From Pseudoclavibacter chungangensis (GTDB lineage: Bacteria; Actinomycetota; Actinomycetes; Actinomycetales; Microbacteriaceae): a DNA stretch of 64,000 nt. Made by a program: the position numbers and the translations under genes. Shown one piece after another: positions 10,431-49,762 of the stretch. Where the stretch lies: positions 186,001-250,000 of the forward strand of contig NZ_JACCFV010000001.1 in NCBI RefSeq assembly GCF_013410545.1, in the 5' to 3' direction. Under the pieces are notes generated by a model, which did no database searches, was not told the origin of the DNA, and was given only the letters and a program-made list of their open reading frames with translations. Numbering within the stretch: position 1 is the first letter of the stretch; the number at the start of each line of letters is the position of its first letter.

Positions 10431-10489
10431 GAAAAAGCCGGGTTGTTGCTACCGGGCCCGGGGCCCGGTAGCAACAACCCGGCTTTTTC
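10431..10489. repeat. Intergenic palindrome, copy 1 (29-bp perfect arms)
   Basis: Arms 10431-10459 and 10461-10489 are perfect reverse complements around a single G. The core on the plus strand is CCGGGTTGTTGCTACCGGG, with GAAAAA outside on the left and TTTTTC on the right, so each strand would form a hairpin followed by a T-run. It lies between the convergent PspC and dpp ATPase genes. Its shape is that of a bidirectional intrinsic terminator, but the sequence itself is conserved at nine sites in the window. Confidence 0.92.
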
Positions 10490-10543
10490 GAGCCGCCTCG
10501 CAGCCCGTCGAGCAGGCGACGCTTTCGCCTCGGTCGGCCGGGC

Positions 10544-10759
10544 GGATCCGGCTCCCCGCGGTGTTGAATCCAGCCGGGTGGATCCGGCTCGGTGCGGTGT
10601 TGAATGCGGCCGGGTGGATCCGGCTCGGTGCGGTGTTGAATGCGGCCGGGTGGATCCGGCTCGGTGCGGTGTTGAATGCGGCCGGGCGGATCCGGCTCGG
10701 TGCGGCGTTGAATGCGGCCGGGCGGATCCGGCTCGGTGCGGCGTCGAATCCAGCCGGGT
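10544..10759. repeat. 36-bp tandem array (6 copies)
   Basis: Six head-to-tail copies begin at GGATCCGGCT at 10544, 10580, 10616, 10652, 10688 and 10724. Units differ by a few transitions only; the last runs into palindrome copy 2. Each unit contains AGCCGGGT or a close variant followed by GGATCCGGCT, a small inverted repeat that resembles a palindrome arm with its interior removed. The open frames through it are repeat translations and not supported genes. Confidence 0.9.
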
Positions 10760-10806
10760 TGTTGCTTCTCGGCCCGGGGCCCGGTAGCAACAACCCGGCT
10801 GGATTC
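10746..10806. repeat. Intergenic palindrome, copy 2 (variant apex, no T-run)
   Basis: Outer arms of 21 bp (10746-10766 and 10786-10806) are perfect and flanked by GAATCC/GGATTC in place of A/T runs. The apex differs from copy 1 by several bases (TCTCGGCCC against ACCGGGCCC), leaving mismatches near the loop. It lies 67 bp beyond the dpp ATPase stop and abuts the 36-bp array. Confidence 0.9.
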
Positions 10807-10872
10807 GAGTTGCGATCGTGTCGGCGGCCGATGGCGGTGCCGGCTCGGAGTCCGCGCCGGACTCCGCGGCGC

Positions 10873-12993
10873 TCAGGTCGCCGGGCTCGGGCGGGTGCCG
10901 ATGCGGGGGACCGCGTCGAACAGCTCGACCGTGTAGGGGTGTCGCGGCCGATCGAAGACCTCGTCGACCGGCCCCGTCTCGACGATCCGCCCGTCCTTCA
11001 TGACCGCGATGCGATGGGTCAGGTGCTGCACGACACCCAGGTCGTGGGAGATGAACAGCATCGCGAGTCCCACCCGGGCCTGCAGCTCGACCAGCAGATC
11101 GAGCACCTGCGCCTGCGTCAGCACGTCGAGCGCCGAGACCGGTTCGTCGGCGACGAGGAGCTCGGGATCGCTCGCGAGCGCCTGCGCGATCGACACGCGC
11201 TGGCGCTGCCCACCCGACAGTCGACCCGGCCGCTCGCCGAGCAGATCCCCGTCGAGGTCGACGAGCCCGAGCAGGCGCACGGCCTCCGCGCGTCGTTCGG
11301 CCGCCGCACGTCGCGGCCCGAGCCGAAGCGGCTGATCGATCAACTGCCCGACGGTCAGGCGCGGATCGAAGCTGCCGAGCGGGTCCTGCGAGATGACCTG
11401 CACGCGTCGGCGCAACGGCCGTCGACGTCGCTCCGGGAGCGCGCTCCACGGGGCACCGAACAGCTCGACGGAGCCGGCATCGAGTCGCTGGAGGCCGAGG
11501 ACGGCACGCCCGAGCGTGCTCTTTCCCGAACCGGATTCGCCCACGACCCCGAGCGTCTCGCCCGGCGCGATCCGGATGCTCACCCCGTCGAGCGCGCGGC
11601 GCCGCGAGCCGCGCGGGCCAGGGAAGACGACGGTGGCGTCGTCGACGACGAGGAGCGGCGCGAGATCGCCAGTCGTGCCGGACGGCTTCGCGAGCGCCGC
11701 GGGAGCGGTGGTGTCGCCGCCCGAAGCGTCGGCCGCGCCATCTGAAGATCCGGCGTTCGCGCGCGCCGATGCGACTGAGCCCTTCCGAGTGTCCGACGCC
11801 TCCGGCGCACCCGCCGTTGCCGGTGCCTCCGCAGGCGCATCCGCCGTGGCCGGTGCGACCGACCCCTCTCCTCCGGTCGACCTCGTCGGTGTCTGCGCGG
11901 AAGCCGGCGCGCCCGACTCGCCGGGTACGTCCGTCGGCCGGGGGACGTTCGGCCCCTCCGCCGCGTCGATCTCCGCCGCGTCGATCTCCGCCGCGTCGAT
12001 CTCCGCCGCGTCGATCTCTGCCGAGTCGATCTCCGCAGCGTCGATCTCATCCGGCGCGACCGACAACCGCCGGCCGCGATTGTGCTCGGACGGGATCGCC
12101 GCGAGCAGCCGACGCGTGTAGGCGTCGCTCGGATTCGCGAGCACGTCCTCGACGGTGCCGGACTCCCCGACCCGTCCGTTCTGCATCACGAGCACGCGTG
12201 ACGCGAACTGCGCGACGACCGCGAGGTCGTGGGTGATGAGCAGTACGCCGCGCCCCTCGGCCGCGAGCCCGCGGAGCAGTTCGAGCACGTGGCGCTGCAC
12301 CGTGACGTCGAGCGCCGTCGTCGGCTCGTCGGCGACGAGCAGGCGCGGGTCGTTCACGATCGCCGAGGCGATGAGTGCGCGCTGGCGCAGACCACCCGAC
12401 AGCTGGTGCGCGTACTGCCGTGAACGGACCTCCGGATCGACGATGCCCGCGCGGCGCAGTGCCGCCTCGACGCGGTCGCGGCGGTCGTTCGCGGGGAGTC
12501 GTCCGAGTGCCTCGCCGACCTCGTCACCGATGCGGCGGAGCGGGTCGAGGGACGTGAGCGCGTCCTGCAGCACGAACCCCACCCGCCGTCCGCGGACGGA
12601 CCGCCACGCGCCCTCGTCGAGAGCGAGGACGTGTTCGCCCTCGAGGTCGAGGCGGTCCGCGGTCACGACGGCGCCGCTCCCCGCGAGCCCGATGAGCGAG
12701 CGGGCCGTGACCGACTTGCCGGAGCCCGAGCGCCCGACGATCGCGACGATCTCACCGGGGTGCACGTCGAACGAGACGTCGTCGACGACCAGCCGGTCGC
12801 TGCGCTCGGGGAACGTGACGGTCAGGCCGCGCACCGACACGACGGGTGCCTGCTCGTGCGCCTCGGCGCTCGTGCGCTCGTCGGCGGGAACAGCGGTCGG
12901 GTCGGCCTGCCGGTGCCCGTCCGTCACCTTCGTCGCGGCGGCCTCGGCCGTCGCTGCCGTCGCTGTCGTCGAGCTCGTCGTTCGCGTGCTCAT
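10873..12993 (-). CDS. Dipeptide/oligopeptide ABC transporter, fused double ATP-binding subunit
   Basis: A 706-residue fusion of two ABC ATPases, corresponding to DppD and DppF as one chain. The first half has Walker A GRSGSGKS near residue 87 and signature LSGGLRQRALIA. The second has GESGSGKST near residue 484 and LSGGQRQRVSIAQ. A linker of about 130 residues between them contains seven near-perfect IDAAE pentapeptides (about residues 312-342) and then Ala/Ser/Gly-rich sequence. It energises import through the two permeases upstream. The ATG at 12993 overlaps the TGA of the permease gene (ATGA), so translation is probably coupled. Confidence 0.92.
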   Translation of the reverse strand: MSTRTTSSTTATAATAEAAATKVTDGHRQADPTAVPADERTSAEAHEQAPVVSVRGLTVTFPERSDRLVVDDVSFDVHPGEIVAIVGRSGSGKSVTARSLIGLAGSGAVVTADRLDLEGEHVLALDEGAWRSVRGRRVGFVLQDALTSLDPLRRIGDEVGEALGRLPANDRRDRVEAALRRAGIVDPEVRSRQYAHQLSGGLRQRALIASAIVNDPRLLVADEPTTALDVTVQRHVLELLRGLAAEGRGVLLITHDLAVVAQFASRVLVMQNGRVGESGTVEDVLANPSDAYTRRLLAAIPSEHNRGRRLSVAPDEIDAAEIDSAEIDAAEIDAAEIDAAEIDAAEGPNVPRPTDVPGESGAPASAQTPTRSTGGEGSVAPATADAPAEAPATAGAPEASDTRKGSVASARANAGSSDGAADASGGDTTAPAALAKPSGTTGDLAPLLVVDDATVVFPGPRGSRRRALDGVSIRIAPGETLGVVGESGSGKSTLGRAVLGLQRLDAGSVELFGAPWSALPERRRRPLRRRVQVISQDPLGSFDPRLTVGQLIDQPLRLGPRRAAAERRAEAVRLLGLVDLDGDLLGERPGRLSGGQRQRVSIAQALASDPELLVADEPVSALDVLTQAQVLDLLVELQARVGLAMLFISHDLGVVQHLTHRIAVMKDGRIVETGPVDEVFDRPRHPYTVELFDAVPRIGTRPSPAT

Positions 12994-13850
12994 GCGCCCG
13001 TTCCCTTCGTGAGTCGTGCCTGGAGCGAGCGTCCGAGCACGGTGATCGAGACGACCGACAGCGCGATCGCCGTCGCGGGGAACACACTCGCCCACGGCGC
13101 CGTGCTCAGGTAACTGCGGCCCTCGGAGAGGAGCGCGCCCCACTCGGGCGTCGGCGGTGCGACGCCGAGCCCGAGGAAGCTGAGGCCCGAGGCGGACAGG
13201 ATCGACGTGCCGACGCCGATCGTCGCGAGCACGACGATCGGCCGCGCGATGTTCGGGAGCACGCGGCTCGCGACGACCCGCAGCGGGGACTCGCCGAGCA
13301 CCTTCGCCTGCTCCGCGTACCCGGAGAGCCGCGCGCTCAGCACCTGGGAGCGTACGAGACGGGCATAGCCCGCGGCCCCCGCGAGGCCGACGGCGATGAG
13401 CGTGTTGACGGGGCCGCGCCCCAGCACGGCGATGATGAGCAGCGCGAGCAGCAGTTCGGGGAACGCGAGCAGGATGTCCACGCCGCGCTGCACGAGCCGG
13501 TCGAGCCCGAACGGCAGGTACACGGACAGCAGTCCGAGGAGCGTGCCGATCAGGAGCGACAGCAGTGCCGCGCCGACGCCGATGAGCAGCGAGTAGCGTG
13601 CGCCGTGGACGACGCGCGAGGCGACGTCGCGCCCGAGGTGGTCGGTGCCGAACGGGTGTGCCGCGCTCGGCGGCTGGAACACGGAGCCGAGGACCGCCTC
13701 CTCCGGGTCGAGGTGCGTGAACAGTCCGGGCACGAGTGCCGCGGCGATGACGGCCGCGACGACGATCCCGGCGAGGATCGTCCCGACGGGGACGTTCCCG
13801 CGCAGACGCTTCGCGCGCGGAACGGCGAGCAGCGTGTCGGCGGCGCTCAT
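12990..13850 (-). CDS. Peptide ABC transporter permease (DppC-like)
   Basis: A 286-residue inner-membrane permease of the binding-protein-dependent family. It begins with one hydrophobic helix (GTILAGIVVAAVIAAALVPG), then HPFGTDHLGRDVASRVVHGA, the DppC/OppC family signature. The EAA-type cytoplasmic loop is LSGYAEQAKVLGESPLRVVA. SGLSFLGLGVAPPTPEWGAL near the end is another DppC hallmark. It pairs with the DppB-like subunit to form the channel. Start and stop both overlap neighbours by ATGA. Confidence 0.93.
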   Translation of the reverse strand: MSAADTLLAVPRAKRLRGNVPVGTILAGIVVAAVIAAALVPGLFTHLDPEEAVLGSVFQPPSAAHPFGTDHLGRDVASRVVHGARYSLLIGVGAALLSLLIGTLLGLLSVYLPFGLDRLVQRGVDILLAFPELLLALLIIAVLGRGPVNTLIAVGLAGAAGYARLVRSQVLSARLSGYAEQAKVLGESPLRVVASRVLPNIARPIVVLATIGVGTSILSASGLSFLGLGVAPPTPEWGALLSEGRSYLSTAPWASVFPATAIALSVVSITVLGRSLQARLTKGTGA

Positions 13851-14968
13851 GCGGGCACCCCGTCCCGGATGCGCGGATCGATGAGCGCGTAGCCGAGGTC
13901 GATCACGAGGTTGATGAGGGAGTAGAGCAGCGCCGAGAGGACGACGAGCCCGAGGATGAGCGGCATGTCGCGCGAGGAGATGCCGAGCAGCGTGATCTGC
14001 CCGATGCCGGGCCGCCCGAACACCGTCTCCGTGAGGATCGATCCCGTGAGGACGCCGCCGAGCATCGTGCCCGCGATCGTCGACACCGCGAGTAGCGAGT
14101 GGCGCAGCGCGTGCCGCACGCGCAGGCCGATCTCGCCGACGCCGCGCGAGCGCACGGTGAGCGCGAACGGCTGGTCGAGCGCGTGCTCGATGCCGTCGCG
14201 CATGACCTGCGAGATGATCGCCGCGAGCGGGAGCGAGAGGGCGAGCGCGGGCAGCACGAGCGACCCCGGCCCGTCCGCACCGACGACGGGGAACCAGCCC
14301 AGCCAGAAGCTGAACACGAGCAGCAGGATGATGCCGATCCAGTAGACGGGCGTGCTGAGCAGCACGAGCTCGGTGCCGGACGCGAGGAACCGGACGCCGG
14401 GCCGTGCCCCCGAAGTGAGGAGCGCCGTCACGGTCGCGATGAGGATCGCGAGCACGAAGCCCGTGAGCGCGAGCTGCAGGGTCGGCACGATCGCCTCCCC
14501 GATCACCTCGACCACGGGGGAGCGGAACGCGTAGCTCTCGCCGATGTCGCCCGTGAACGCGCGCCCGAGATAGCGCAGGTACTGCACGATGAGCGGCTGG
14601 TCGAGCCCGTACGCGGCCGTCACGACCGCACGCTGCTCCGCGTCGACGATGTTCTCGCCGCCCGAGATGATCGCGACGGGGTCGCCCGGGATCGACTTCA
14701 CGGCGATGAACGTGATCGTCGCGGCGCCCCACAGCACGAGCACGAGCTCGAGCAGTCGGCGACCGACCTGGCGCAGCACGACACCGGCGGGGGACCGGCG
14801 GCGCGCGTCGTCGGACGACGCCGTCGCCTTCCCCGTCCCCGCGGTCGGCCCGTCGGGTGACGGTCCCGGGGCCGCGGCCGTCCGTCGGGGGTCACCCGTC
14901 GTGGCGCCCGCGGCGCTCGCGGTGGGATCACCCGCCCTGGCGTCCGCACCGATATCGTGCTGCGTCAT
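13847..14968 (-). CDS. Peptide ABC transporter permease (DppB-like)
   Basis: A 373-residue permease. The first 65 residues are an Ala/Gly/Thr-rich cytoplasmic extension not usual for DppB. The conserved body starts with LRQVGRRLLELVLVLWGAATITF, then VKSIPGDPVA and YGLDQPLIVQYLRYLGRAFTGDIGES, all typical of DppB/OppB. The EAA-like loop holds ALDQPFALTVRSRGVGEIGLRV. It lies one base downstream of the binding-protein gene and four bases into the DppC gene. Confidence 0.93.
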   Translation of the reverse strand: MTQHDIGADARAGDPTASAAGATTGDPRRTAAAPGPSPDGPTAGTGKATASSDDARRRSPAGVVLRQVGRRLLELVLVLWGAATITFIAVKSIPGDPVAIISGGENIVDAEQRAVVTAAYGLDQPLIVQYLRYLGRAFTGDIGESYAFRSPVVEVIGEAIVPTLQLALTGFVLAILIATVTALLTSGARPGVRFLASGTELVLLSTPVYWIGIILLLVFSFWLGWFPVVGADGPGSLVLPALALSLPLAAIISQVMRDGIEHALDQPFALTVRSRGVGEIGLRVRHALRHSLLAVSTIAGTMLGGVLTGSILTETVFGRPGIGQITLLGISSRDMPLILGLVVLSALLYSLINLVIDLGYALIDPRIRDGVPA

Positions 14969-14969
14969 A

Positions 14970-16625
14970 TCAGCTCCCGTTCGTCAGCCAGGCGTTGTAG
15001 AACAGCGGCTTGGCGTTCGTCGCCCACGCGAGCCCCTGCAGCTCGGACGTGTGCGCGACCTGGTAGTTCGGCACGTACAGCGGCACCGAGTACGCCTGGT
15101 CGATGACCTCGCGCTGCACCTGCGTGTACAGCTCGGCGCGGCGCTCCGGCGTCGCACCGACGGCCTCGTCGAGGAGCGGGTCGAGCGTCGTGACGCGCGA
15201 ACCGTTGCCCGTGCCGACGCTCGCCGAGCCGTACACGGTGCGCAGGATGTCGGCCTCGGCACGCACGAAGAAGTACGCGATCGCGTCGTAGTCACCGGCC
15301 TCCGTGCGGGCCGACTGCGTGCCCGCGTCGACCGAGTCGAGCACGAGGTCGATGCCGATCTTGCGGTACTCCGACTGCAGCGCCTGCAGCAGGTTCGCGT
15401 TCGTTTGCCCCGTGTAGCCCTCGTCGTAGCTGAGGGTCACGGTGAGCGGCGAGCCGTTCTTCGTGCGGATGCCGTCCGCGTTGCGCTCGGTCCAGCCGGC
15501 CTCGTCGAGCAGCGTGTTCGCGCGGTCGGGCTGGTTCTTCCACGAACCGTCGGCGTCGGCGTCCGCGAACTCGGTGTGCGAGCTGAGCGGGCCGGTCGCG
15601 GTCTCGACCGTGCCGAAGAGCGTGGCCTCGATGGCCGCGTCGATGTCGACGCCCGTCTGGAACGCCTGGCGCACCTTCACGTCGTCGAACGGTGCCCGCG
15701 TCGTGTTGAGCTGCAGCGAGTAGGGCACGCCGGGGTTCTGGTACACGTCGACCGTGATCTTCTCGTTCGAGCCGAGCGTCGCGGCGTCGGCGGGCGGCAC
15801 GGAGTCGATCGCCTGCACCTGGCCGCTCTGGAGCGCGCCGAGGCGCGTCGACGACTCGGGCAGGTAGCGGTACTCGATGCCGTCGAGGTGCGCCGGGCCC
15901 GTGTGGGCGAGGTGACCGGGGCCCCAGTTGTAGTCGTCACGCTTCGTGAGCTTCGAGCCCTGTCCCGGCGCGAACGATTCGAGCGTGAAGGGGCCGGAGC
16001 CGACCGCGTTCGTGCTGAGGTCGCCGCCGCTCGTGAGGAACGCGGGCGACTGGATGCCGAGGTAGGAGAGGCTGAGCCCCTGCAGGAGCGGGGCGAACGA
16101 CTCGTCGTAGCGGATGACGACCGTCGTCGCGTCGGGCGCCTCGACGGCGGCGACGGGGCCGAGGAGCGAGCGCGCGTACGTCGAGTTGTTGGCGGGGTCG
16201 AGGACGAAGTCGAAGTTCTGCTTGACCGCGGCCGCGTCGAGCTTCTCGCCGTCCGAGAAGGTGACGTCGTCGCGCAGCGTGAACGTGTACTCGGTGTTCG
16301 CCTCGTTCACGTCCCACTCGGTCGCGAGCCACGGGTGGATCGAATTGTCGACGTCCTGCGACACGAGCGAGTCGACGACGTCGCGCGTGATCGTCGCGGT
16401 CACCGAGCTGCCGGTCAGGTGCGGGTTGATGATGTTCGTGTCGTTGCCGAGGGCGACCTGCAGGACGCCTCCCTCGACGGGCTGGCCGGCGGCCGCGTCC
16501 TCGCCTGTGGCCGTGCCGCTCGCGCAACCGGTGAGGGCGACGAGTGCGGCGAGCGCGAGCGCGGAGAACGCGACGGGGCGGGGCGGACGGTGTGATCGCC
16601 GGGCGCGATCGTGGAGCGAGGTCAC
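14970..16625 (-). CDS. Peptide ABC transporter substrate-binding lipoprotein
   Basis: A 551-residue extracytoplasmic solute-binding protein of family 5. The N-terminus RARRSHRPP is followed by a hydrophobic core and the lipobox LTGC, so it should be lipid-anchored. Mature family features include GGVLQVALGNDTNIINPHL, DNSIHPWLATEWDV and FTLRDDVTFSDGEKLDAAAV. The GTG start has a GAAAGG site about ten bases upstream. It is the first gene of the four-gene transporter operon and divergent from the M19 dipeptidase, which suggests di- or oligopeptides as ligands. Confidence 0.92.
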   Translation of the reverse strand: MTSLHDRARRSHRPPRPVAFSALALAALVALTGCASGTATGEDAAAGQPVEGGVLQVALGNDTNIINPHLTGSSVTATITRDVVDSLVSQDVDNSIHPWLATEWDVNEANTEYTFTLRDDVTFSDGEKLDAAAVKQNFDFVLDPANNSTYARSLLGPVAAVEAPDATTVVIRYDESFAPLLQGLSLSYLGIQSPAFLTSGGDLSTNAVGSGPFTLESFAPGQGSKLTKRDDYNWGPGHLAHTGPAHLDGIEYRYLPESSTRLGALQSGQVQAIDSVPPADAATLGSNEKITVDVYQNPGVPYSLQLNTTRAPFDDVKVRQAFQTGVDIDAAIEATLFGTVETATGPLSSHTEFADADADGSWKNQPDRANTLLDEAGWTERNADGIRTKNGSPLTVTLSYDEGYTGQTNANLLQALQSEYRKIGIDLVLDSVDAGTQSARTEAGDYDAIAYFFVRAEADILRTVYGSASVGTGNGSRVTTLDPLLDEAVGATPERRAELYTQVQREVIDQAYSVPLYVPNYQVAHTSELQGLAWATNAKPLFYNAWLTNGS

Positions 16626-16882
16626 CGGGACTGGCCTTTCGTTGGACGGACATCGGCGGCGACGGTCCGCGTCCCGGATCACGCCGTGCGGCTGTCGACC
16701 GGAGCGGGCGGCCCGCCGGGTCCCGCAACGATAGGGACGGGCGGGGACGCGACGGTGGCGTGCGTCGCCCCCTGAAGGCCGGTGACGGTGGCGGTCACCC
16801 GATGACGTCGCGTGACGCGGGACGCGCGCGGGCGTCCGGTGCCGCACGGCGGCGCCCGCGAGCGACGTCCTAGGCTCCCGGC

Positions 16883-18115: not shown

Positions 18116-18210
18116 TCGGAGAGCGTCTGCCCGGGGAGCGTTCGCGAGAGGAGCGTCTGCGCGACGGCGAATTTGCGAGAGGGAGCGTCTGCGTGAGCGT
18201 CGAATCCCAA

Positions 18211-18266
18211 TCCATCCGAGTTGTTGCTACTCGGCCCGCGGCTCGGTAGCAACAACCCGGCTTTCT
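18211..18266. repeat. Intergenic palindrome, copy 3 (degenerate)
   Basis: The inner stem GTTGTTGCTAC/GTAGCAACAAC (18220-18230 and 18246-18256) is intact but the flanks and apex carry several mismatches (CGAGTT against AACCCGG). A CTTTCT run follows on the plus strand. It lies 100 bp after the dipeptidase stop. It looks like a decayed copy of the same element. Confidence 0.8.
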
Positions 18267-18344
18267 GTGCGCGTCGGGGCATCGGAACGGCAGCGCAGGG
18301 GGTGCTCGTGCGTGACCCTGAGTTCCGGAGCGACGCCGATTCAT

Positions 18345-18394
18345 CCGGGTTGTTGCTACCGGGCCCGCGGCCCGGTAGCAACAACCCGGCTTTT
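18345..18394 (+). repeat. Intergenic palindrome, copy 4 (one-sided T-run)
   Basis: Perfect 21-bp arms (18345-18365 and 18369-18389) surround a CGC loop. CTTTTT follows the right arm, but the left flank is GATTCAT with no A-run, so the terminator polarity is plus-strand only. It sits 26 bp beyond the stop of the convergent SDR. Copies 3 and 4 together fill the 300-bp gap between the dipeptidase and the SDR. Confidence 0.88.
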
Positions 18395-18415
18395 TCAGGG
18401 CGGGTGGTGTGAGGG

Positions 18416-19261: not shown

Positions 19262-19279
19262 GGTTGGTCCTCGATCGTC

Positions 19280-19386
19280 GTGGTGCGTGGTGCGTGGTGC
19301 GTGGTGCGTGGTGCGTGGTGCGTGGTGCCTTGTGCGTGGTGCGTGGTGCGTGGTGCGTGGTGCGTGGGGAGTGGTGGTGCGTGGTC
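19280..19386. repeat. Heptamer tandem array GTGGTGC just upstream of the SDR
   Basis: About fourteen 7-base units of GTGGTGC with two interruptions (near 19328 and 19366) occupy the 5' region of the SDR, ending only 18 bases before its GTG start. Every frame through it is open because the unit lacks stops. A perfect simple repeat at this position is prone to slippage and changes the distance between any upstream promoter and the ribosome binding site. Confidence 0.9.
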
Positions 19387-19546
19387 GCGAGTTGTGGTGC
19401 CGGGCGTCGCGGTCCGTCCCCTGTGATTCGACCTTACGGATCGTCCGGGCCCGCCGCTCTCGACCGATTCGTCGGGGCACCGCTCGCGTCGGCCGGTATC
19501 GCCGCGCGAAGACCCCTCGACCTCTCGTGCCGGGGCAGCTGATCCG

Positions 19547-19598
19547 GCCGGGTTGTTGCTACCGGGCCCGGGGCTCGGTAGCAACAACCCGGCTTTTT
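19547..19598 (+). repeat. Intergenic palindrome, copy 5
   Basis: Arms 19547-19569 and 19571-19593 (GCCGGGTTGTTGCTACCG core) match apart from one apex base, followed on the plus strand by TTTTT. Both neighbouring genes are on the minus strand, so the T-run faces away from the MFS gene it follows. Confidence 0.88.
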
Positions 19599-19600
19599 GC

Positions 19601-19655
19601 GCAGTCGGAGCCGCAGTCGGAGCCGGAGCCGGAGCCGGAGCCGCAGCCGCAGCCT
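19601..19655. repeat. Hexamer/12-mer simple repeat (GGAGCC, GCAGCC)
   Basis: Two copies of GCAGTCGGAGCC are followed by runs of GGAGCC and GCAGCC directly beside palindrome copy 5. No gene is supported in 19262-19687; the region consists of the heptamer array, unique sequence, the palindrome and this repeat. Confidence 0.7.
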
Positions 19656-19687
19656 CGTCGGCGTCCGGTCGGCCCCGCGTCGGCCGG

Positions 19688-26701: not shown

Positions 26702-26722
26702 ATTACCTGAGCCCGGTGCATC

Positions 26723-26773
26723 CAGCCGGGTTGTTGCTACCCGGCCCGGGGCCCGGTAGCAACAACCCGGCTG
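26723..26773. repeat. Intergenic palindrome, copy 6 (no T-run)
   Basis: Arms 26723-26747 and 26749-26773 (CAGCCGGGTTGTTGCTACCC and complement) match except for one apex position. It lacks the A/T flanks of copies 1, 8 and 9. It lies between the convergent DUF4916 and ald genes. Confidence 0.88.
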
Positions 26774-26795
26774 AATGCGGCTCGGCTCCGCGCAA

Positions 26796-39645: not shown

Positions 39646-39700
39646 AAAAAGCCGGGTTGTTGCTACCGGGCCGCGGGCCCGGTAGCAACAACCCGGCTTT
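39646..39700. repeat. Intergenic palindrome, copy 7
   Basis: Arms 39648-39672 and 39676-39700 are perfect (25 bp) around a GCG loop. AAAAA stands on the left; CTTTCTTC follows on the right. It lies between the co-directional trpF and GNAT genes, 270 bp after trpF. Confidence 0.9.
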
Positions 39701-39839
39701 CTTCGGACGTCCCGTTCGCCTCCGGCCGGACGGCCGTCGTCACCACTCGATGTCCGCTCGATGTCTGCTGGTACGGGAAAGCGGACCGGGGACGATGGAG
39801 GTGGGTAGGACGATGGCGGCGGGAAGGGATGATGGAGGC

Positions 39840-40307: not shown

Positions 40308-40337
40308 GAGTTTCGGCCCGGCATCGGCGACGCGCAC

Positions 40338-40398
40338 CGAAAAAGCCGGGTTGTTGCTACCGGGCCCCGGGCCCGGTAGCAACAACCCGGCTTTTTCG
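40338..40398. repeat. Intergenic palindrome, copy 8 (30-bp perfect arms)
   Basis: The longest copy: arms 40338-40367 and 40369-40398 are perfect around one C, with CGAAAAA and TTTTTCG ends. It begins 30 bases after the GNAT stop and lies between convergent genes, the ideal setting for a two-way terminator. Confidence 0.93.
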
Positions 40399-40462
40399 CG
40401 GTGTCGCGTGCCGCGCAGCACGCGTGCAACCGTGCCGCGTGCGGAACCCTGCCGCGTTCGTC

Positions 40463-40588: not shown

Positions 40589-40609
40589 GCCTTCGCCGCG
40601 CTGTGGCCG

Positions 40610-42657: not shown

Positions 42658-42773
42658 GTCGACTCCTCGTGGTCGGTGGGTGCCCCAACCGTACCGTCGA
42701 GTGCTGCGACGCGTCTCACCGGCGTCGCGCCGTGACCCGCGGCGGATCCGCAGCTTCCCGCGCACGGGCGGGC

Positions 42774-42790
42774 CGATAAGATGTGGCACG
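42774..42790. promoter_or_regulatory. Candidate GntR operator / promoter of the regulator gene
   Basis: GATAAGATGTGGCACGC lies 50-66 bases before the GntR ATG. TAAGAT is a plausible -10. ATGTGGCAC resembles the motif found before livK (44391) and before the oxidoreductase operon (49808). Regulatory role is inferred from similarity and position. Confidence 0.4.
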
Positions 42791-42839
42791 CTTCTCGGCG
42801 GCCCCCGGCGCCGAGCCGATCGCGACCCGCGGAGGAGAC

Positions 42840-43514
42840 ATGTCGAGTGATCCGGCGTTCGGCCCGGCAGCTCCGGCGATGAGCCTCCGGGAATCCATCG
42901 AGCGCTCCGTCTCCGCCGCGATCGTCGCGGGCACCGTCCCGCCGGGCGAGCTGTTGAGCGTGCCCACGCTCGCGGTCCAGTTCCAGGTGTCCGCGACGCC
43001 CGTGCGCGAGGCCATGCTCAACCTGCAGAAGCTCGGCTTCGTCGAGCCGGTGCGCAACAAGGGCTTCCGGGTCACTGCGGTCTCGATGCCCGAACTCGCG
43101 GACATCGTCGAGGTGCGTCGCATGCTCGAGGTACCCGTCGTCGGGGAGCTCGCCGACGACTATCCGATCGAGGACGACGCGCGCCTGCGCGAGCTCGCCG
43201 ACCGCATCGTGGACGCGGCCGAGCGCGCCGACCTCCCGGCGTACCTCGAGGCGGACATCGAGTTCCACACCCTGCTGCTGAGTCGGCACGGGAACGCGCG
43301 GCTCGTCGCGATCGTCGTGGGGCTGCGTCGGCAGACGCGCCTCACGGGGCTCAGCGGCATGCAGGGATCGGCCGAGCTGCAGGAGTCGGCGGAGGAGCAC
43401 GGCCGCCTGCTCGACCTGCTCGCGGCGGGTGATCGCGCGGGTGCCGAGGCGCTCGTGCACCGGCACATCGGGCACGTGCTCGGCTGGTGGGCGGGGAATC
43501 CCGAGGTGCACTGA
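42840..43514 (+). CDS. GntR family regulator (FCD subfamily)
   Basis: A 224-residue regulator. The winged helix has SLRESIERSVSAAIVAGTVP, then SVPTLAVQFQVSATPVREAM and LQKLGFVEPVRNKGFRV. The FCD effector domain follows with the metal/ligand-binding Asp/His pattern (EVRRMLEVPVVGEL, EADIEFHTLLLSRHGNARL, EEHGRLLDLLAAGDRAGAEA, HRHIGHVLGW). ATG 42840 is chosen because GGAGGAGAC directly precedes it. It is divergent from the racemase/reductase pair and upstream of the transport and catabolic operons. It is the likely pathway regulator, with hydroxyproline or an intermediate as ligand. Confidence 0.92.
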   Translation: MSSDPAFGPAAPAMSLRESIERSVSAAIVAGTVPPGELLSVPTLAVQFQVSATPVREAMLNLQKLGFVEPVRNKGFRVTAVSMPELADIVEVRRMLEVPVVGELADDYPIEDDARLRELADRIVDAAERADLPAYLEADIEFHTLLLSRHGNARLVAIVVGLRRQTRLTGLSGMQGSAELQESAEEHGRLLDLLAAGDRAGAEALVHRHIGHVLGWWAGNPEVH

Positions 43515-43659
43515 GCCCGGATGGTGTGGTCGGAACGGTGGGCGCGAATGCGGCCGCCCGGTGCCCTCGCGGGCGCTCGAAGTCCGACCCGCTTCTCGTA
43601 CACGCATCCCACAGGACCGTGGGGCATGCTCTGCGCGACCATGCTCGACGGAGGTGCTC

Positions 43660-44190
43660 ATGCACGCAACGACCGGTCGCCCGCTCCTCCCCGGTGAGCC
43701 GGGCGCCCCGGGACCGGGTCGCCGCGCGATCGTCCTCACGCGGACGCTGCCGCTCGGCCCCGGCCGACTCTGGACGTATCTCGCGACGCCCGACGGGCTC
43801 GAGGAGTGGATCGGCACGTACGAGGGGGACCCCACGAGCGGGCAGGTCCGCTTCCGCATGACGGCGGAGGGCCCCGAGGCCGACTGGACCCCGCTGCACA
43901 TCAACGTGTGCCGGCCCGAGGCGCTGCTCGACGTCGCGTTCGCGATCGGTGACGACCGGTGGGACATCGGCCTCGCGCTCGACGGCGACGACGACGGCAC
44001 CGAGCTGCACTTCTCGCACTGCAGCGACGACGTCGCGGGCCTCGCCGAGGTCGGTGCGGGGTGGGAGTTCTACCTCGACCGGCTCGATGCGGTGACGAGC
44101 GGCGCACCGGTCGAGGACCTCGATTTCGGCGACTACGACGTGCTCGTCGCCGCCTACGATCGCCTCCTCGACGGCATGACCGTGCGGTAG
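43660..44190 (+). CDS. SRPBCC (START-like) family protein
   Basis: A 176-residue protein of the SRPBCC/AHSA1 fold. It contains RAIVLTRTLPLGPGRLWTYLATPDGLEEWIGTYEG, then DDGTELHFSHC and a C-terminal helix WEFYLDRLDAVTSG. Such proteins bind hydrophobic ligands; no catalytic function is assigned. ATG is preceded by GGAGGTGCTC-type sequence (ACGGAGGTGCTC). It lies between the GntR gene and the transporter, 145 bp after the former. Link to the pathway is unclear. Confidence 0.8.
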   Translation: MHATTGRPLLPGEPGAPGPGRRAIVLTRTLPLGPGRLWTYLATPDGLEEWIGTYEGDPTSGQVRFRMTAEGPEADWTPLHINVCRPEALLDVAFAIGDDRWDIGLALDGDDDGTELHFSHCSDDVAGLAEVGAGWEFYLDRLDAVTSGAPVEDLDFGDYDVLVAAYDRLLDGMTVR

Positions 44191-44289
44191 TCCGCGGGTC
44201 GACATCCGGCCGAGCGGGTGCGTCATCGCAGTGGGTCGTCGGCCGCTGCGCCGCGTCGGGCCGCGGAGACGGCCCGCGTCGGCTTCGCT

Positions 44290-44312
44290 CGATTCGATTC
44301 GATTCGATTCGA
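44290..44312. repeat. Pentamer repeat (CGATT)4
   Basis: Four perfect GATTC units lie in the gap between the SRPBCC and livK genes, about 80 bases before the predicted regulatory site. Slippage-prone simple sequence; no other feature is recognised in 44191-44380. Confidence 0.7.
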
Positions 44313-44390
44313 CACGCACGGTTGCCGCCGCCACGGGTTACGAACGTGTTGCGGCTCGCCGACGGTCTTCCCCGAGCACCCGACGATCAG

Positions 44391-44404
44391 TAATGTGTGA
44401 CACC
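44391..44404. promoter_or_regulatory. Candidate operator before livK
   Basis: TAATGTGTGACACC contains the palindrome GTGT-G-ACAC, 52-65 bases before the livK ATG. Nearly the same string stands before the oxidoreductase operon at 49808. Shared control by the nearby GntR regulator is proposed. Confidence 0.5.
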
Positions 44405-44455
44405 TCAACGCTGACGACGATGTCGGCACCAACCTCATCGTTGGAGGAATGGCAC

Positions 44456-45643
44456 ATGTCCACACGTTCCACGCGCCGCTCGAGCTGGCGCACCGTCTTC
44501 GCCCCGATCGCCCTCGCGGCGACCGCGGTCCTCACGCTCGCGGGGTGCTCCGGCGGCCTCGCGGGAGGCGGCGACGCCGCGTCCGAGGACGGCCCGATCA
44601 AGCTCGGCATGGCCGCGCCGTTCTCGGGCTCCGAGTCGGCGTTCGGCCCGTACATGCAGAACGGCGCGCAGCTCGCGATCGACGAGATCAACGCGGCCGG
44701 CGGTGTGCTCGGTCGGCAGCTCGAACTCGTCACGGCGGACGACGCGTGCGACGCGACGAGCGCCACGGCCGCTGCGAACAAGCTCGTGACCGACGGCATC
44801 GTCGCCTCGGTCGGCGGCTACTGCTCCGGCGCGACGCTCCCGACGCTCCCGATCTTCGAGGCAGCGAACATCCCCATGGTCATCCCCGCCGCGAACTCGA
44901 ACGAGCTCGTCAAGGCCGGCCTGAACAACGTGTTCCTCATCAACGGCACGGGCACGCAGCAGGCCGAGGCGGCCATCAAGTACGCCGCGAAGGAGGGCCT
45001 GACCAACATCGCCCTCCTCGACGACAACACCGACTACGCGAAGGACCTCGCGAACTCGGTCGCCTCGCAGGCCGCCGACGGCGGTGTCACGGTGGTCCTG
45101 CAGGACTCCGTCAACGCGGGTGAGTCGGACTACGCCGCGGCCGTCAACAAGATCGTCTCCTCGGGAGCGCAGCTCCTCTACTGGACGGGCTACTACCAGG
45201 AGGGCGGCCTCATCGTCTCGCAGCTCAAGGCGGCGGGCTACACCGGCCAGATCATGGTCGGCGACGGCTCGGTCGACGCGAAGTTCGCCGAGATCGCGGG
45301 CCCGGCTGCCGACGGCGTGCTCGGCACGTTCACCCAGACGCCCGACATGCTCGAGGGCGCCGAGACGTGGATCAGCGACTACACGGAGAAGTTCGGTGCC
45401 GCGCCCGGCCCGTACTCGACCCAGAGCTACGACGCCGTGCGCGTCGTCGCCGAGGCCATCACGAACGCCGGGACGACCGACGGTGAGGCGGTCATCACCG
45501 CGCTCGAGGGGCTGAAGGACTTCCCGATCTTCTCCGGCTCGCTCACGTTCTCGCCCGAGCACACGCTCACCGAGGGCGGCTTCGCGATCGTGACGGTCGG
45601 CCCCGACGGCACGTTCGTGCTCAAGGACGACCTCAAGAGCTAG
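44456..45643 (+). CDS. livK: Branched-chain-type ABC transporter substrate-binding lipoprotein
   Basis: A 395-residue periplasmic-binding protein type I. The signal peptide ends in the lipobox LTLAGC (Cys near residue 34), so it is lipid-anchored. The mature part starts with IKLGMAAPFSGSESAFGPYMQNGAQLAIDEINAAGGVLG, in two stretches typical of LivK. IPMVIPAANSNELVK and AALLDDNTDYAKDL-like sequence follow. GGAGG lies nine bases before the ATG. It opens a five-gene liv operon embedded in the hydroxyproline cluster. The ligand may be hydroxyproline or proline betaine-like, not leucine; this is inference. Confidence 0.92.
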   Translation: MSTRSTRRSSWRTVFAPIALAATAVLTLAGCSGGLAGGGDAASEDGPIKLGMAAPFSGSESAFGPYMQNGAQLAIDEINAAGGVLGRQLELVTADDACDATSATAAANKLVTDGIVASVGGYCSGATLPTLPIFEAANIPMVIPAANSNELVKAGLNNVFLINGTGTQQAEAAIKYAAKEGLTNIALLDDNTDYAKDLANSVASQAADGGVTVVLQDSVNAGESDYAAAVNKIVSSGAQLLYWTGYYQEGGLIVSQLKAAGYTGQIMVGDGSVDAKFAEIAGPAADGVLGTFTQTPDMLEGAETWISDYTEKFGAAPGPYSTQSYDAVRVVAEAITNAGTTDGEAVITALEGLKDFPIFSGSLTFSPEHTLTEGGFAIVTVGPDGTFVLKDDLKS

Positions 45644-45711
45644 CGGCGCAGGGGCGGGCGGCACACGCCTCCCGCCCCTCGCACGCGGCACGGCGCCCCG
45701 AAGGGAAGCGG

Positions 45712-46602
45712 ATGCTCCAACTCGTCATCGACGGCCTGTTCGTCGGATCGTTCTACGCACTCGTCGCGCTCGGCTACAGCATGGTGTACGGCATCATCAA
45801 GCTGCTCAACTTCGCGCACGGCGACATCTACATGGTCGGTGCGTTCACCGGCCTCGTGGTCTTCTCGACCGTCTCCGGACTCGCGGGCGGCGGCATCCTG
45901 TCGATCCTGCTCGTCATGCTCATCGCGATGATCTTCACGGGTCTGCTCGGGGTCGGCATCGAACGCATCGCCTACCGGCCGCTGCGGAAGTCGCCGCGGC
46001 TCGCGGTGCTCATCACGGCGGTCGGCATGTCGTTCATCCTCGAATACGGCGTGCGCCAGATCTTCGGCCCCAACCCGCAGGTCTACGGCGCGCGGCTCGA
46101 GGGCGCGACGCTCTCGTTCCTCGACGCCCGCATCACGCTGCCGCAGATCGTGCTCATGGTCGTCGCGGCGGCGCTCATGGTCGTCCTCAACCTCTACATC
46201 ATGCGCTCGCGGGACGGACGCGCCATGCGCGCGATCGCCCTCGACCCACAGGGTGCGCAGCTCATGGGCGTCAACGTCGACAAGGTCATCTCGCGCACCT
46301 TCTTCATCGGCTCCGCGCTCGCGGGCGCGGCCGGCGTCATGGCGGGCGCCTACTACGGCTCGATCGACTTCCTCATGGGCTTCGTGATCGGCCTGAAGGC
46401 GTTCACCGCGGCCGTCATCGGCGGCATCGGCAACCTCTACGGTGCGATGCTCGGCGGCATCGTGCTCGGCCTGCTCGAGGCGTTCGGTACGCACTGGCTC
46501 GGTGGCCAGTGGCGCGACGTGTTCTCGTTCGCGTGCCTCATCCTGTTCCTGTCCTTCCGGCCCACCGGCATCCTCGGTGCGCGCGTCGTCGAGCGGATGT
46601 GA
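45712..46602 (+). CDS. livH: Branched-chain-type ABC transporter permease LivH
   Basis: A 296-residue permease. QLVIDGLFVGSFYALVALGYSMVYGIIKLLNFAHGD spans the N-terminus in two hallmark stretches. The cytoplasmic loop is RAIALDPQGAQLMGVNVDKV, and FTAAVIGGIGNLYGAMLGGI is the late signature. It forms the membrane channel with LivM. It follows livK by 68 bp and precedes livM by 4 bp. Start ATG has AAGGGAAGCGG upstream. Confidence 0.94.
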   Translation: MLQLVIDGLFVGSFYALVALGYSMVYGIIKLLNFAHGDIYMVGAFTGLVVFSTVSGLAGGGILSILLVMLIAMIFTGLLGVGIERIAYRPLRKSPRLAVLITAVGMSFILEYGVRQIFGPNPQVYGARLEGATLSFLDARITLPQIVLMVVAAALMVVLNLYIMRSRDGRAMRAIALDPQGAQLMGVNVDKVISRTFFIGSALAGAAGVMAGAYYGSIDFLMGFVIGLKAFTAAVIGGIGNLYGAMLGGIVLGLLEAFGTHWLGGQWRDVFSFACLILFLSFRPTGILGARVVERM

Positions 46603-46606
46603 TCGC

Positions 46607-47764
46607 ATGACCAGCACAACGGGCGACCGCATCCAGGCGCCGCGTCCCATCCACCCACGGCCCGAGCCGCGCTCGGGGCTCCTCTACCCACCGCGCTTCA
46701 TGGCGCTGCTCGGGCTCGTCGTGTTCCTCGTCGCGCTCGTGCTGCCGTTCGTGAACGCATCGCAGTACATGATGTCGATCGGCACGCAGGCACTCATCTA
46801 CATCATGCTCGCGATGGGCCTCAACATCGTCGTCGGCTACGCCGGCCTGCTCGACCTCGGGTACTACGCGTTCTTCGCCGTCGGTGCGTACACGGCGGGC
46901 GTGTTCAACACGGCCCTGCACGTGCCACTCATCTGGACCGTCCCGATGGTGATCATCGCGTGCATCGCGGCGGGGCTCATCATCGGCGGCCCGACGCTGC
47001 GATTGCGCAGCGACTACCTCGCGATCGTGACGCTCGGGTTCGGCGAGATCATCCGCCTCACGGCGAACAACCTCGAGGTCACGGGCGGCCCGTCGGGGAT
47101 CTCCGGCATCTCGACGTTCGAGTTCTTCGGGTGGTCGTTCCGCGACGGGCTGGAGATCGCGGGCATCGAGTTCCCCGGCTACGTGCTCCTCTACTACTTC
47201 TGCCTCGTCGTCGGTGGTGTGCTCGCGGTCGTGGCGGCCTCGCGCCTCGGTCGCGGCAAGCTCGGCCGTGCGTGGCGGGCGATCAAGGACGACGAGGACG
47301 CCGCCGAGGCGATGGGCATCAACACCTATACGACGAAGCTCAAGGCGTACGTGCTTGGTGCCGTGTTCGGTGGCCTCGCGGGCATCCTCATGGGGGCGCA
47401 CCAGACGGCCGTCAGCCCGACGTCGTTCGTGTTCCTCAACTCGGCGCTCCTGCTCATGGCGGTCGTGCTCGGCGGGATGGGGTCGATCCCCGGCGTCATC
47501 ATCGGCGCGCTCGTCATCTCGCTCCTGCCGGAGCTCCTGCGCGAGGTCGCCGAGTGGCGGTTCCTCGTGTTCGGTGTGCTGCTCGTCGTCATGATGATCT
47601 TCCGCCCGGCGGGCGTGTGGCCCTCGACCGCGGTCCTGCCGTTCCTGAAGTTCCGCGCGCCCGGCCAGAAGCCGTCGCCGCGTGACGGGTTCGGTGACCA
47701 CGACGAGGATCCGGCGACCGCGCCGGCCGACGAGAACATCGACAAGTCGAAGGAGCAGGCATGA
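46607..47764 (+). CDS. livM: Branched-chain-type ABC transporter permease LivM
   Basis: A 385-residue permease. The conserved core is ALIYIMLAMGLNIVVGYAGLLDLGYYAFFAVGAYTAG. LRLRSDYLAIVTLGFGEIIRL, the EAA loop RAIKDDEDAAEAMGINTY and VVLGGMGSIPGVIIGALVI are characteristic. The first 40 residues are cytoplasmic and Pro/Arg-rich. The last four bases overlap the livG start (ATGA). Confidence 0.94.
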   Translation: MTSTTGDRIQAPRPIHPRPEPRSGLLYPPRFMALLGLVVFLVALVLPFVNASQYMMSIGTQALIYIMLAMGLNIVVGYAGLLDLGYYAFFAVGAYTAGVFNTALHVPLIWTVPMVIIACIAAGLIIGGPTLRLRSDYLAIVTLGFGEIIRLTANNLEVTGGPSGISGISTFEFFGWSFRDGLEIAGIEFPGYVLLYYFCLVVGGVLAVVAASRLGRGKLGRAWRAIKDDEDAAEAMGINTYTTKLKAYVLGAVFGGLAGILMGAHQTAVSPTSFVFLNSALLLMAVVLGGMGSIPGVIIGALVISLLPELLREVAEWRFLVFGVLLVVMMIFRPAGVWPSTAVLPFLKFRAPGQKPSPRDGFGDHDEDPATAPADENIDKSKEQA

Positions 47765-48912
47765 GCGACACGACGTCCGCCACCCCGGGCGCCCCGCTTT
47801 CGGGCACCTCGCCGATCGACGTCCCGGGCACCGAGACGATCGCGATCAACGCGGCCCGGTTCCGGGAGGGGCGCGGTGGGCAGCTGCCGCTGCTGTCGGT
47901 CAAGGACCTCCGCCTGCACTTCGGCGGCGTGAAGGCCGTCGACGGGCTCACCTTCGATGCGTACGCGGGCGAGATCATCTCGGTCATCGGCCCGAACGGC
48001 GCGGGCAAGACGAGCGCCTTCAACTGCATCACCGGGTTCTACCGTCCGACCTCGGGCAGCATCGAGTTCGACGGCGAGAGCATCATGCGCAAGCTGCCGT
48101 CCACGATCACGCGTCGTGGCCTCGCGCGCACGTTCCAGAACGTGCGCATGTTCAAGGAGATGACGGTCATCGACAACGTGAAGACCGGCATGCACGGGCA
48201 CGTCGGGCAGAACGTGTTCGACGCGATGCTCCACACGCCGAGGTACCGGCGCGCCGAGCGTCAGTGCCTCGACGACGCGCGCGGCTGGCTCGACTTCACG
48301 GGGTACTCGCTCGACGACGATCTGCTCGCCTCGCAATTGCCCTACGGCGAGCAGCGTCGCGTCGAGATCGCCCGCGCGCTCGCGAGCCGGCCGAAGCTCC
48401 TGCTGCTCGACGAGCCGGCGGCGGGCCTCAACCACAACGAGAAGCAGGACCTCATCGCGCTCATCCGGCGCATCCGCGATCTCGGCGTGGGGGTCGTGCT
48501 CATCGAGCACGACATGGGCCTCGTCATGGACATCTCGGAGCGCATCGTCGTGCTCAACTTCGGTCGCGAGATCGCGGACGGCACGCCCGAGGAGGTGCGC
48601 GACGACCCGCGGGTCATCGAGGCCTATCTCGGCGCCGAGGACGACGAGGACGACGAGGCGGTGGACGGGACGGCCGGTTCGGCGGCGCCGGCGGTCGAGG
48701 AGGTCGTGGTCATCGAGAAGGCGGTCGTGCCCGTGGTCGACGCGGACGGGACGCCCGTGGACGTCGTCGTCGAGGAGGTCGTCGTCGAGGACGTCGTCGT
48801 GACGGACGAGAAGCTGCCGGGCGACGACCCGGGGGCCGTGCCCCCGACCGTCGACGGCGCGGACACCGTCGACGAGGTCGACGGGAACGGGAACGGGGAG
48901 GCGCGCGCATGA
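47761..48912 (+). CDS. livG: Branched-chain-type ABC transporter ATPase LivG, with acidic tail
   Basis: A 383-residue ATPase; LivG is usually about 255-290. Walker A is GPNGAGKTSAFN near residue 79, the long inserted loop EMTVIDNVKTGMHG is LivG-typical, the signature is LPYGEQRRVEIARAL and Walker B is LLLLDEPAAGLNHNEK. About 35 residues precede the domain. After the LivG end (IEAYLGAEDDEDDE) there is a tail of roughly 90 residues rich in Val, Glu and Asp. It shows repeated EEVVV/EDVVV stretches, shared by no standard LivG. The tail precedes the ATGA overlap with livF. Confidence 0.92.
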   Translation: MSDTTSATPGAPLSGTSPIDVPGTETIAINAARFREGRGGQLPLLSVKDLRLHFGGVKAVDGLTFDAYAGEIISVIGPNGAGKTSAFNCITGFYRPTSGSIEFDGESIMRKLPSTITRRGLARTFQNVRMFKEMTVIDNVKTGMHGHVGQNVFDAMLHTPRYRRAERQCLDDARGWLDFTGYSLDDDLLASQLPYGEQRRVEIARALASRPKLLLLDEPAAGLNHNEKQDLIALIRRIRDLGVGVVLIEHDMGLVMDISERIVVLNFGREIADGTPEEVRDDPRVIEAYLGAEDDEDDEAVDGTAGSAAPAVEEVVVIEKAVVPVVDADGTPVDVVVEEVVVEDVVVTDEKLPGDDPGAVPPTVDGADTVDEVDGNGNGEARA

Positions 48913-49619
48913 GCATCGAACTGGAACTCACGGACGTCGACCTGTTCTACGGTCGCGTGCACGCGCTCCAGGGGCTGTCGTTCAGCGTCGGTGAGGGCGA
49001 GGTCGTCTCGCTCCTCGGCAACAACGGTGCGGGCAAGACGTCGACGCTGTCGATGCTGTCGGGCCTGTACCGCGCGAAGTCGGGCTCGATCACGTGGCGC
49101 GGGGCCGACATCACGCAGGCGAAACCGTGGGATCTCGTCGAGAAGGGGCTCATCCACGTGCCCGAGGGACGGCGCATCTTCTCGACCATGACGGTGCACG
49201 AGAACCTGCAGCTCGGCGGCTACCAGGTGAAGGACAAGGCGCTCATCGCGAAGCGCATCGAGGAGTCGTACGAGCTCATGCCTCGGCTCTTCGAGCGGCG
49301 CAATCAGCAGGGCGGCACCCTCTCGGGTGGTGAGCAGCAGATGGTCGCGATCGCTCGTGCCTACGTCGGGGGGCCGCAGCTCCTGTTGCTCGACGAACCG
49401 TCGATGGGGCTCGCGCCGCTCGTCGTGAAGCAGGTGATGGAGCTCATCTCGTCGATCAGCGCGCAGGGCACGACGATCCTGCTCGTCGAGCAGAACGCGC
49501 GGGCCGCGCTCAAGGTCGCGGACCGTGCGTACGTGATCGAGTCGGGCAAGGTGACGATCTCGGGGACGGCGGCCGAGCTGTCGAAGGACCGAGCGATCAT
49601 CGAGGCCTACCTCGGCTGA
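48909..49619 (+). CDS. livF: Branched-chain-type ABC transporter ATPase LivF
   Basis: A 236-residue ATPase of standard length. Walker A is GNNGAGKTSTLSM, then the LivF-specific HVPEGRRIFSTMTVHENL, the signature LSGGEQQMVAIARAY and Walker B LLLLDEPSMGLAPLVV. It completes the liv operon (K, H, M, G, F) and dimerises with LivG. Palindrome copy 9 stands 86 bases downstream. Confidence 0.95.
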   Translation: MSIELELTDVDLFYGRVHALQGLSFSVGEGEVVSLLGNNGAGKTSTLSMLSGLYRAKSGSITWRGADITQAKPWDLVEKGLIHVPEGRRIFSTMTVHENLQLGGYQVKDKALIAKRIEESYELMPRLFERRNQQGGTLSGGEQQMVAIARAYVGGPQLLLLDEPSMGLAPLVVKQVMELISSISAQGTTILLVEQNARAALKVADRAYVIESGKVTISGTAAELSKDRAIIEAYLG

Positions 49620-49705
49620 GCTCGAGCCGAGGTGCGGTCCGGACCTGCCCGTCCGGGCCGAGCTCGATCCCCGGCCGGGTTGACCGGCGACGGTCAGCGG
49701 CCACG

Positions 49706-49762
49706 AAAAAGCCGGGTTGTTGCTACCGGGCCCGCGGCCCGGTAGCAACAACCCGGCTTTTT
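49706..49762. repeat. Intergenic palindrome, copy 9
   Basis: Arms 49706-49732 and 49736-49762 are perfect (27 bp, AAAAA/TTTTT included) around a CGC loop. It separates the co-directional liv operon from the oxidoreductase operon and is the best-placed terminator for livF. Confidence 0.92.

Follow-up and report, generated by a model that had tools for sequence, protein, structure and literature searches.

A lineage-specific family of 57-bp palindromes at gene ends of Pseudoclavibacter chungangensis and a family of the same design in sister species

In this study we analyzed a 64,000-nucleotide stretch of the Pseudoclavibacter chungangensis genome (the window; positions 186001-250000 of the single 3,985,007-bp contig, 72.5% GC), for which nine long intergenic palindromes of conserved sequence had been predicted. 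The nine palindromes belong to a family of 74 copies dispersed over this genome (G000; other genomes and fetched loci carry G and L numbers). Its sequence and placement suggest that the family is probably a lineage-specific, short, non-autonomous dispersed element resembling repetitive extragenic palindromes (REPs) and miniature inverted-repeat transposable elements (MITEs), much of which would serve as bidirectional intrinsic terminators. The copy number, exact length, sharp borders, gene-end placement and stem covariation, the privacy of the family among the genomes searched and the counterpart in sister species were all observed directly. Our analysis adds to the original prediction the two types of palindrome ends, the exact length of 57 bp, the number of copies in the whole genome and the second family, which sister species carry.

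The core is not confined to the window; its confinement there had been named as a finding that would speak against a dispersed element. At up to 3 mismatches, 73 palindromes were found in the whole genome and none in a reversed-pattern control; 72 of them carry the required 8-nt arm stretch without mismatch, and the one at 987228 deviates from it at a single base. The 74th copy, at 3691158, is 56 bp long with a centre one base shorter, and the statistics on ends, arms and placement given below were computed on the 73 full-length copies (146 arms or ends). A 20-mer arm (at most 3 mismatches) matched the genome 74 + 75 times, compared with 1 + 3 times for the control, and the copies explain 74 + 74 of these matches, leaving one extra. 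The exact degenerate 15-mer matched 71 + 71 times genome-wide, all explained by copies, and six core k-mers were not found outside copies in 513 kb (71.1% GC) comprising the window and 51 stretches fetched around the copies outside it. The copies are densest between 196 and 253 kb, mostly in the window, with ten copies in 60 kb; 2000 random placements gave a mean maximum of 5 and a highest value of 8 copies per 60 kb.

All 73 copies could be aligned without gaps over 57 columns. A copy opens with 5 terminal nucleotides, followed by GCCGG and the arm GTTGTTGCTACCGGGCC; three bases form the centre, and the other half is the mirror image of the first, so that the hairpin has at most 27 or 28 pairs. 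Of the 146 ends, 97% retain the outermost T, and outside the 57 bp the information content drops to background within some 3 bases. In masked flanks of 600 bp no family-wide shared sequence was detected; the matches seen were tandem-repeat sequence at five copies, one paralogous gene segment, neighbouring family copies and scattered short matches. The diverged tandem repeat is shared by the flanks of copies 20806, 1803234, 1853589, 3198740 and 3336824 and probably belongs to a repeat-rich gene family missed by the gene caller.

Gene prediction relied on a simple caller based on codon usage. No predicted gene contains any of the 73 copies, so that random placement inside genes does not apply; one copy overlaps a predicted gene end by one base. 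In 63 cases the copy lies beyond a gene 3′ end, at a median distance of 64 bp from the nearest one, and by gap class 32 copies are convergent, 31 tandem and 10 divergent. Among intergenic regions of at least 60 bp in the fetched stretches, convergent gaps made up 29 of the 67 with a copy and 36 of the 214 without (odds ratio 3.8, p 2e-5), and divergent gaps 9 of 67 and 71 of 214, respectively (odds ratio 0.31). Four gaps hold two copies each, and the members of a fifth pair are 2.7 kb apart, probably across an uncalled gene. A thiamine pyrophosphate (TPP) riboswitch was found at L023:4223-4315, about 180 bp from the divergent-gap copy 456615. Terminators of rRNA or tRNA genes were considered and rejected: a tRNA gene was present in 6 of the 51 stretches and none in the window, no rRNA was found in the 14 stretches scanned, and no Rfam family was found in the window.

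Within the window, the nine palindromes were recovered at the predicted places: the arm GTTGTTGCTACCGGG (at most 3 mismatches) gave 18 matches that form nine head-to-head pairs with a constant offset of 22 bp, whereas shuffled sequences gave 0.75 matches on average and 3 at most. With 25 nt of flank on each side, the copies fold into the expected long stems with 3-nt loops at -37.6 to -73.3 kcal/mol. The copies, none of which has a strand assigned, are the following.

Copy 1, 10432..10488, no strand: 57-bp palindrome with T/T ends.
Copy 2, 10748..10804, no strand: 57-bp palindrome with GGAT/GGAT ends and 3 arm changes.
Copy 3, 18210..18266, no strand: 57-bp palindrome with GGAT/T ends and 3 arm changes, in a convergent gap.
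Copy 4, 18339..18395, no strand: 57-bp palindrome with one T end, in the convergent gap shared with copy 3.
Copy 5, 19542..19598, no strand: 57-bp palindrome with one T end, 3′ of a minus-strand gene (sub-threshold sugar-transporter match).
Copy 6, 26720..26776, no strand: 57-bp palindrome with no T run, flanked by a DUF4916/NUDIX gene and a convergent gene of the alanine dehydrogenase family.
Copy 7, 39646..39702, no strand: 57-bp palindrome with T/T ends, after a PRAI-domain gene.
Copy 8, 40340..40396, no strand: 57-bp palindrome with T/T ends, between convergent acetyltransferase and ornithine-cyclodeaminase-family genes.
Copy 9, 49706..49762, no strand: 57-bp palindrome with T/T ends, after an ABC-transporter ATPase gene.

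As had been stated, each of the nine is intergenic, with at least one predicted gene 3′ end beside it; for copies 1 and 2 this rests mainly on the right-hand gene, the left-hand gene of copy 1 being a weak call of 61 amino acids. The remark that A/T runs differ between copies also held, with T runs on neither side in two copies (10748 and 26720), on one side in three and on both sides in four. The statement that arm decay is limited to copies 2, 3 and 6 was mostly correct, but in copy 5 an arm also deviates at one position, where a G-U pair remains, and changes at the foot of the stem in copies 3 and 4 correct it further.

In the whole family, two types of ends were distinguished. The first is T-rich (TTTTT in 59 ends, TTTCT in 24, plus minor forms), and 100 of the 146 ends are T-ended. 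The second is TGGAT (29 ends) with its relatives, and one-step intermediates such as TTGAT and TTTAT occur. The two ends of a copy agree across the stem, with 43 T/T and 15 GGAT/GGAT copies compared with 34.1 and 6.2 expected on redealing the ends. The T-ended copies have the make-up of intrinsic terminators, i.e., a stable hairpin followed by a T run and adjoining gene ends, and in 40 of the 43 T/T copies the palindrome is the only perfect hairpin (at least 9 bp) of its gap. Another hairpin is present in the gap for 5 of the 15 GGAT/GGAT copies (p 0.02, uncorrected, against the T/T copies). A terminator scan of a 14-kb region of the window gave 19 terminator-like matches, 18 of which are three palindromes, each in three nested registers and on both strands, compared with 2.1 matches in shuffled sequences. 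Because the palindrome is symmetric, a G+C hairpin plus T run is read either way, and the T-ended copies likely act as terminators in both directions.

Such hairpins might be ordinary terminators whose sequences became alike with no transposition involved, either because gene conversion homogenized them or because one good hairpin was selected for. The placement, the T runs and the covariation of the arms suit this explanation, as does the situation at guaB. In G000 a copy lies 68 nt downstream of guaB, and in 28 of 80 guaB loci of relatives (taken from named records; the closest, from Pseudoclavibacter, with 84% protein identity) a hairpin of unrelated sequence is found within 200 nt past the stop codon. 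We nevertheless regard this explanation as unlikely. The flanks share nothing that conversion could use, neighbouring copies are no more alike than distant ones, and the exact border is also present in the TGGAT copies, which have no T run. Furthermore, other intergenic hairpins in the 513 kb (bar the one short-centre family copy) have no such common sequence, and termination therefore needs none.

The changes within the stem are unevenly distributed. Pairing is kept in 94.9% of the stem cells (57 distinct rows), and double-sided changes were counted in 43 cells, compared with 21.5 in shuffles and with none of 500 shuffles as high, a comparison that has to be read with the caveat that related sequences can exceed shuffles. 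Only 25 changes were found in the 15-nt arms, one of them in the outer nine positions and 13 at position 13 alone; this depletion of the outer arm is significant (p 4e-9) and remains so when the recurrent position 13 is left out (1 of 12, p 1e-4). The outer segment GTTGTTGCT thus shows a single change in 146 arms. The change at position 13 (C in 12 arms and T in 1 of the 146) is two-sided in one copy only; in most cases the stem is left with a C-C or G-G mismatch.

This pattern could arise if a lineage-specific protein recognized GTTGTTGCT in the DNA or in the RNA hairpin and selection kept the site, for 3′-end processing, factor-aided termination or the separation of convergent genes. The near absence of changes from the outer arm agrees with such a binding site, and so does the second family described below, in which the core TTGTGGTCG is constant while the outer stem changes in pairs, also at one orthologous place in four species. 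However, the sister sites were chosen by their core, so this constancy is partly built in, no candidate protein emerged, and a recent burst with uneven copying errors could also leave an invariant core. The 15-nt arms are unchanged in 56 of the 73 copies, so the time for selection may have been short. A binding site kept by selection is therefore, in our estimate, an improbable account of the whole family.

The distribution of the 57-bp family supports its being a dispersed element. It was found in one of 398 genomes of the taxonomic family, and the palindrome was absent from the 397 others as well as from 395 further members of the phylum (two overlapping sets that include some incomplete genomes). 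It was also absent from nine genomes of the same genus, where single arms occurred at background level, and the exact palindrome had no match in a genome-contig collection from which its own genome was excluded. In a duplicated 1.6-kb gene segment (86% identical), a copy lies downstream in both places, at a different distance and behind an unrelated spacer. Taken together, the exact borders, the unrelated flanks, the shared sequence, the gaps with two copies and the privacy to one genome point towards mobility, and the mover, if there is one, would act in trans. A search for orthologues of the flanking genes in 799 kb of four relatives gave three matches, all from one query. As no relative close enough to provide an empty site of the 57-bp family was found, we can only infer copying.

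Several observations weigh against a mobile element adopted as terminator. In the case of mobility, a search confined to the transposase domain Y1_Tnp (PF01797) gave no match in G000, whereas the control was positive in 5 of 14 genomes, and no longer element with the ends of the palindrome was found in the genome, although a mover may have other ends. Flanking direct repeats were not clearly enriched (2-bp repeats at 11 copies compared with 5.5 expected, 4-bp repeats at 2 compared with 0.47, 5-bp repeats at none). Neighbouring copies are no more alike than distant ones, for which reason local copying was rejected. With no longer element and no local similarity found, both a mover and movement are putative. 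In the case of termination, T runs are only slightly more frequent on sides that face a gene end (69 of 95) than on other sides (31 of 51; p 0.19), and a paired test in the 31 tandem gaps was not significant (p 0.14). As this bias is mild and the paired test not significant, termination at the T-ended copies is no more than likely. In addition, ten copies were classed as divergent, some of them probably through gaps of the gene caller beside tandem repeats, and no perfect 9-bp hairpin follows guaB in 52 of the 80 relatives, including the six closest. An origin from plasmids or phages was also considered and rejected, with no phage match and two weak partial matches in Neorhizobium plasmids (E 0.1); two 17-mer matches in viral contigs each comprise a lone arm that forms no hairpin.

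A dispersed, copied element used as terminator, as the original prediction had proposed, remains the best reading of these data, but the link made there to REPs and their RAYTs (REP-associated tyrosine transposases) did not hold, given that there is no Y1 domain, no end tag and no lone arm. REPs are described in the consulted sections of PMC3733652 as lying mainly 3′ of genes, in convergent or unidirectional gaps, and those of the CGTC type as being without a dedicated transposase. The 57-bp family resembles REPs as depicted there (PMC3733652) in being a short, dispersed intergenic palindrome mostly downstream of genes in convergent or tandem gaps, and its placement (63 of 73 copies 3′ of genes, none within predicted genes) is that of REPs and bacterial interspersed mosaic elements (BIMEs). 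It differs in its length of 57 bp compared with 20-40 for REPs, in its like ends, which are symmetric (A..T) and carry no GTAG or CGTC tag at one end (GTAG occurs inside the arm only), and in the 3-nt centre fixed in 73 of the 74 copies. Since the genome moreover lacks a Y1_Tnp domain, it is very unlikely that the palindromes are a classical REP/BIME family mobilized by an IS200-type (RAYT) transposase, even if the placement matches that given in those sections (PMC3733652).

Other known systems fit no better. Like palindromic MITEs, the family is non-autonomous and has fixed borders and inverted arms, but its arms meet at the centre, there is no clear target duplication and no longer relative with the same ends, and the genome-wide 20-mer arm search revealed no insertion sequence (IS) with the same terminal repeats. 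Hairpins formed by uptake sequences in Neisseria are, in the available part of PMC1852404, enriched tail to tail and argued to be terminators. The DNA-uptake-sequence terminators of Neisseria and Pasteurellaceae, as presented there (PMC1852404), share with the 57-bp family the sequence-conserved hairpin, the A and T tails and the tail-to-tail enrichment. However, uptake motifs generally have 1000 or more sites compared with about 74 copies here, the stem is at least twice as long here, and the arm is not found alone. A DNA-uptake signal was rejected because single unpaired arms were absent (0 in 513 kb; the genome-wide 15-mer counts being explained by copies). Intrinsic terminators likewise have a G+C hairpin and a T run just after genes, but one shared sequence, a TGGAT subtype without a T run and an exact outer border set the family apart. 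RepRanger, according to the portion of PMC12306157 used here, tells REPs from terminators by the T tail, and the 57-bp family crosses this line. It has the defining features of neither REPs nor MITEs nor DNA-uptake sequences. In the literature covered, which leaves out most subscription journals, we found no published description of the arms or, for Pseudoclavibacter, Microbacteriaceae or actinobacteria, of families of palindromes or terminators.

Other long palindromes seen at the folD gene ends of relatives led to a second family with the core TTGTGGTCGTCA. Its 21-nt arm (at most 3 mismatches) gave 22, 20, 18, 22 and 10 matches in five sister species (G002, G007, G004, G001 and G006), compared with 1 match in G000, 0 to 4 in the other four genomes and 0 or 1 per control; not all matches are palindromes, and some have the look of chance matches or of coding sequence. 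Earlier loci together with 35 requested stretches (34 new) yielded 39 rows, corresponding to 30 distinct two-armed sites, 28 of them with an 11-nt centre. None of the 30 lies in a predicted gene; 15 are convergent, 11 tandem, 2 divergent and 2 at edges. The sites were selected by the core TGGTCGTCA, which partly builds in the constancy of TTGTGGTCG. In an alignment of 25 of the 30 sites, the outer stem shows 43 double-sided cells compared with 25.7 in shuffles, with none of 500 as high. One site with both flanks aligned is common to G001, G004, G006 and G002, and its arms differ mostly in pairs. After folD, the sister palindrome is present in G001 and G002 and absent from G004 and G006, where the flanks are 96% and 92% identical to G001 (G004) and 92% and 86% to G002 (G006). 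Because the missing stretch is longer than the palindrome, gain and loss are indistinguishable at this place.

Homology of the two families was considered and rejected, as a model of the 57-bp family picks up no sister copies. A model of the sister family, which found 6 sites at E <0.01 in the 799 kb of four relatives, gave nothing significant in the 513 kb of G000 (best E 0.24). The models do not find each other, and common descent of the sequences is therefore not supported; the likeness is one of design and placement. In 67 same-genus and other sources, the 57-bp model recovered a single further hairpin at L176:9927-9976 (rough E value of 5.7e-5), plus a weaker match in L164 (E 0.017); among the 80 guaB loci the best match was L128 (E 0.0039), which has little likeness to the core. 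The L176 sequence (from G004) is an imperfect intergenic hairpin whose core GTTGTTGTTCCCGG resembles the 57-bp family and could link the families.

Further palindromes were seen in other loci. In L142 (Naasia sp.) a long palindrome with the core GGCGGGAAGTGACC occurs twice in 7.5 kb, at about 4490-4545 and 5583-5646; the first starts at the guaB stop codon, and this may be another lineage-specific family. Palindromes with GCGAAAGCGACAG, or nearly so, are present in L086, L089, L095, L102, L103 and L111 (Curtobacterium and a Microbacteriaceae bacterium), downstream of guaB and at similar positions in the loci. In G009, a palindrome with 28-bp arms follows folD (L200:2449-2515), its sequence being unlike both families. 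The sister core also occurs in one plant-promoter paper, to all appearance by chance.

From these results we infer termination, mobility through a trans-acting factor and recognition of GTTGTTGCT by a factor. In the mechanism that we propose, the element would have spread to about 74 intergenic places, moved by some trans-acting factor, possibly the one recognizing the near-invariant GTTGTTGCT. Insertions would have been tolerated chiefly behind genes and most of all in convergent gaps. At copies that end in AAAAA...TTTTT, intrinsic termination would take place in either direction: a G+C-rich RNA hairpin would form when the polymerase runs out of the gene, and the U run would then release the enzyme. 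The TGGAT-ended copies would keep the hairpin without a U run and might be weak terminators or merely stabilize 3′ ends.

Palindromes that are short and dispersed are usually linked either with RAYT transposases or with DNA uptake, and the 57-bp family fits neither. More speculatively, and with considerable doubt on our part, members of the genus may each use a lineage-specific "dialect" of a gene-end palindrome, of fixed length and with a near-invariant core of 9-12 nt (GTTGTTGCT here, TTGTGGTCG in the sisters). Such a dialect might be read by a factor that changes along with it and mark and close convergent transcription units, with whole families turning over between sister species. The 57-bp family offers a clean case of how a palindrome without a visible transposase may spread and how far one copied sequence may supply the terminators of a genome, and the analysis further revealed that a different family, built to the same design, is present in sister species.

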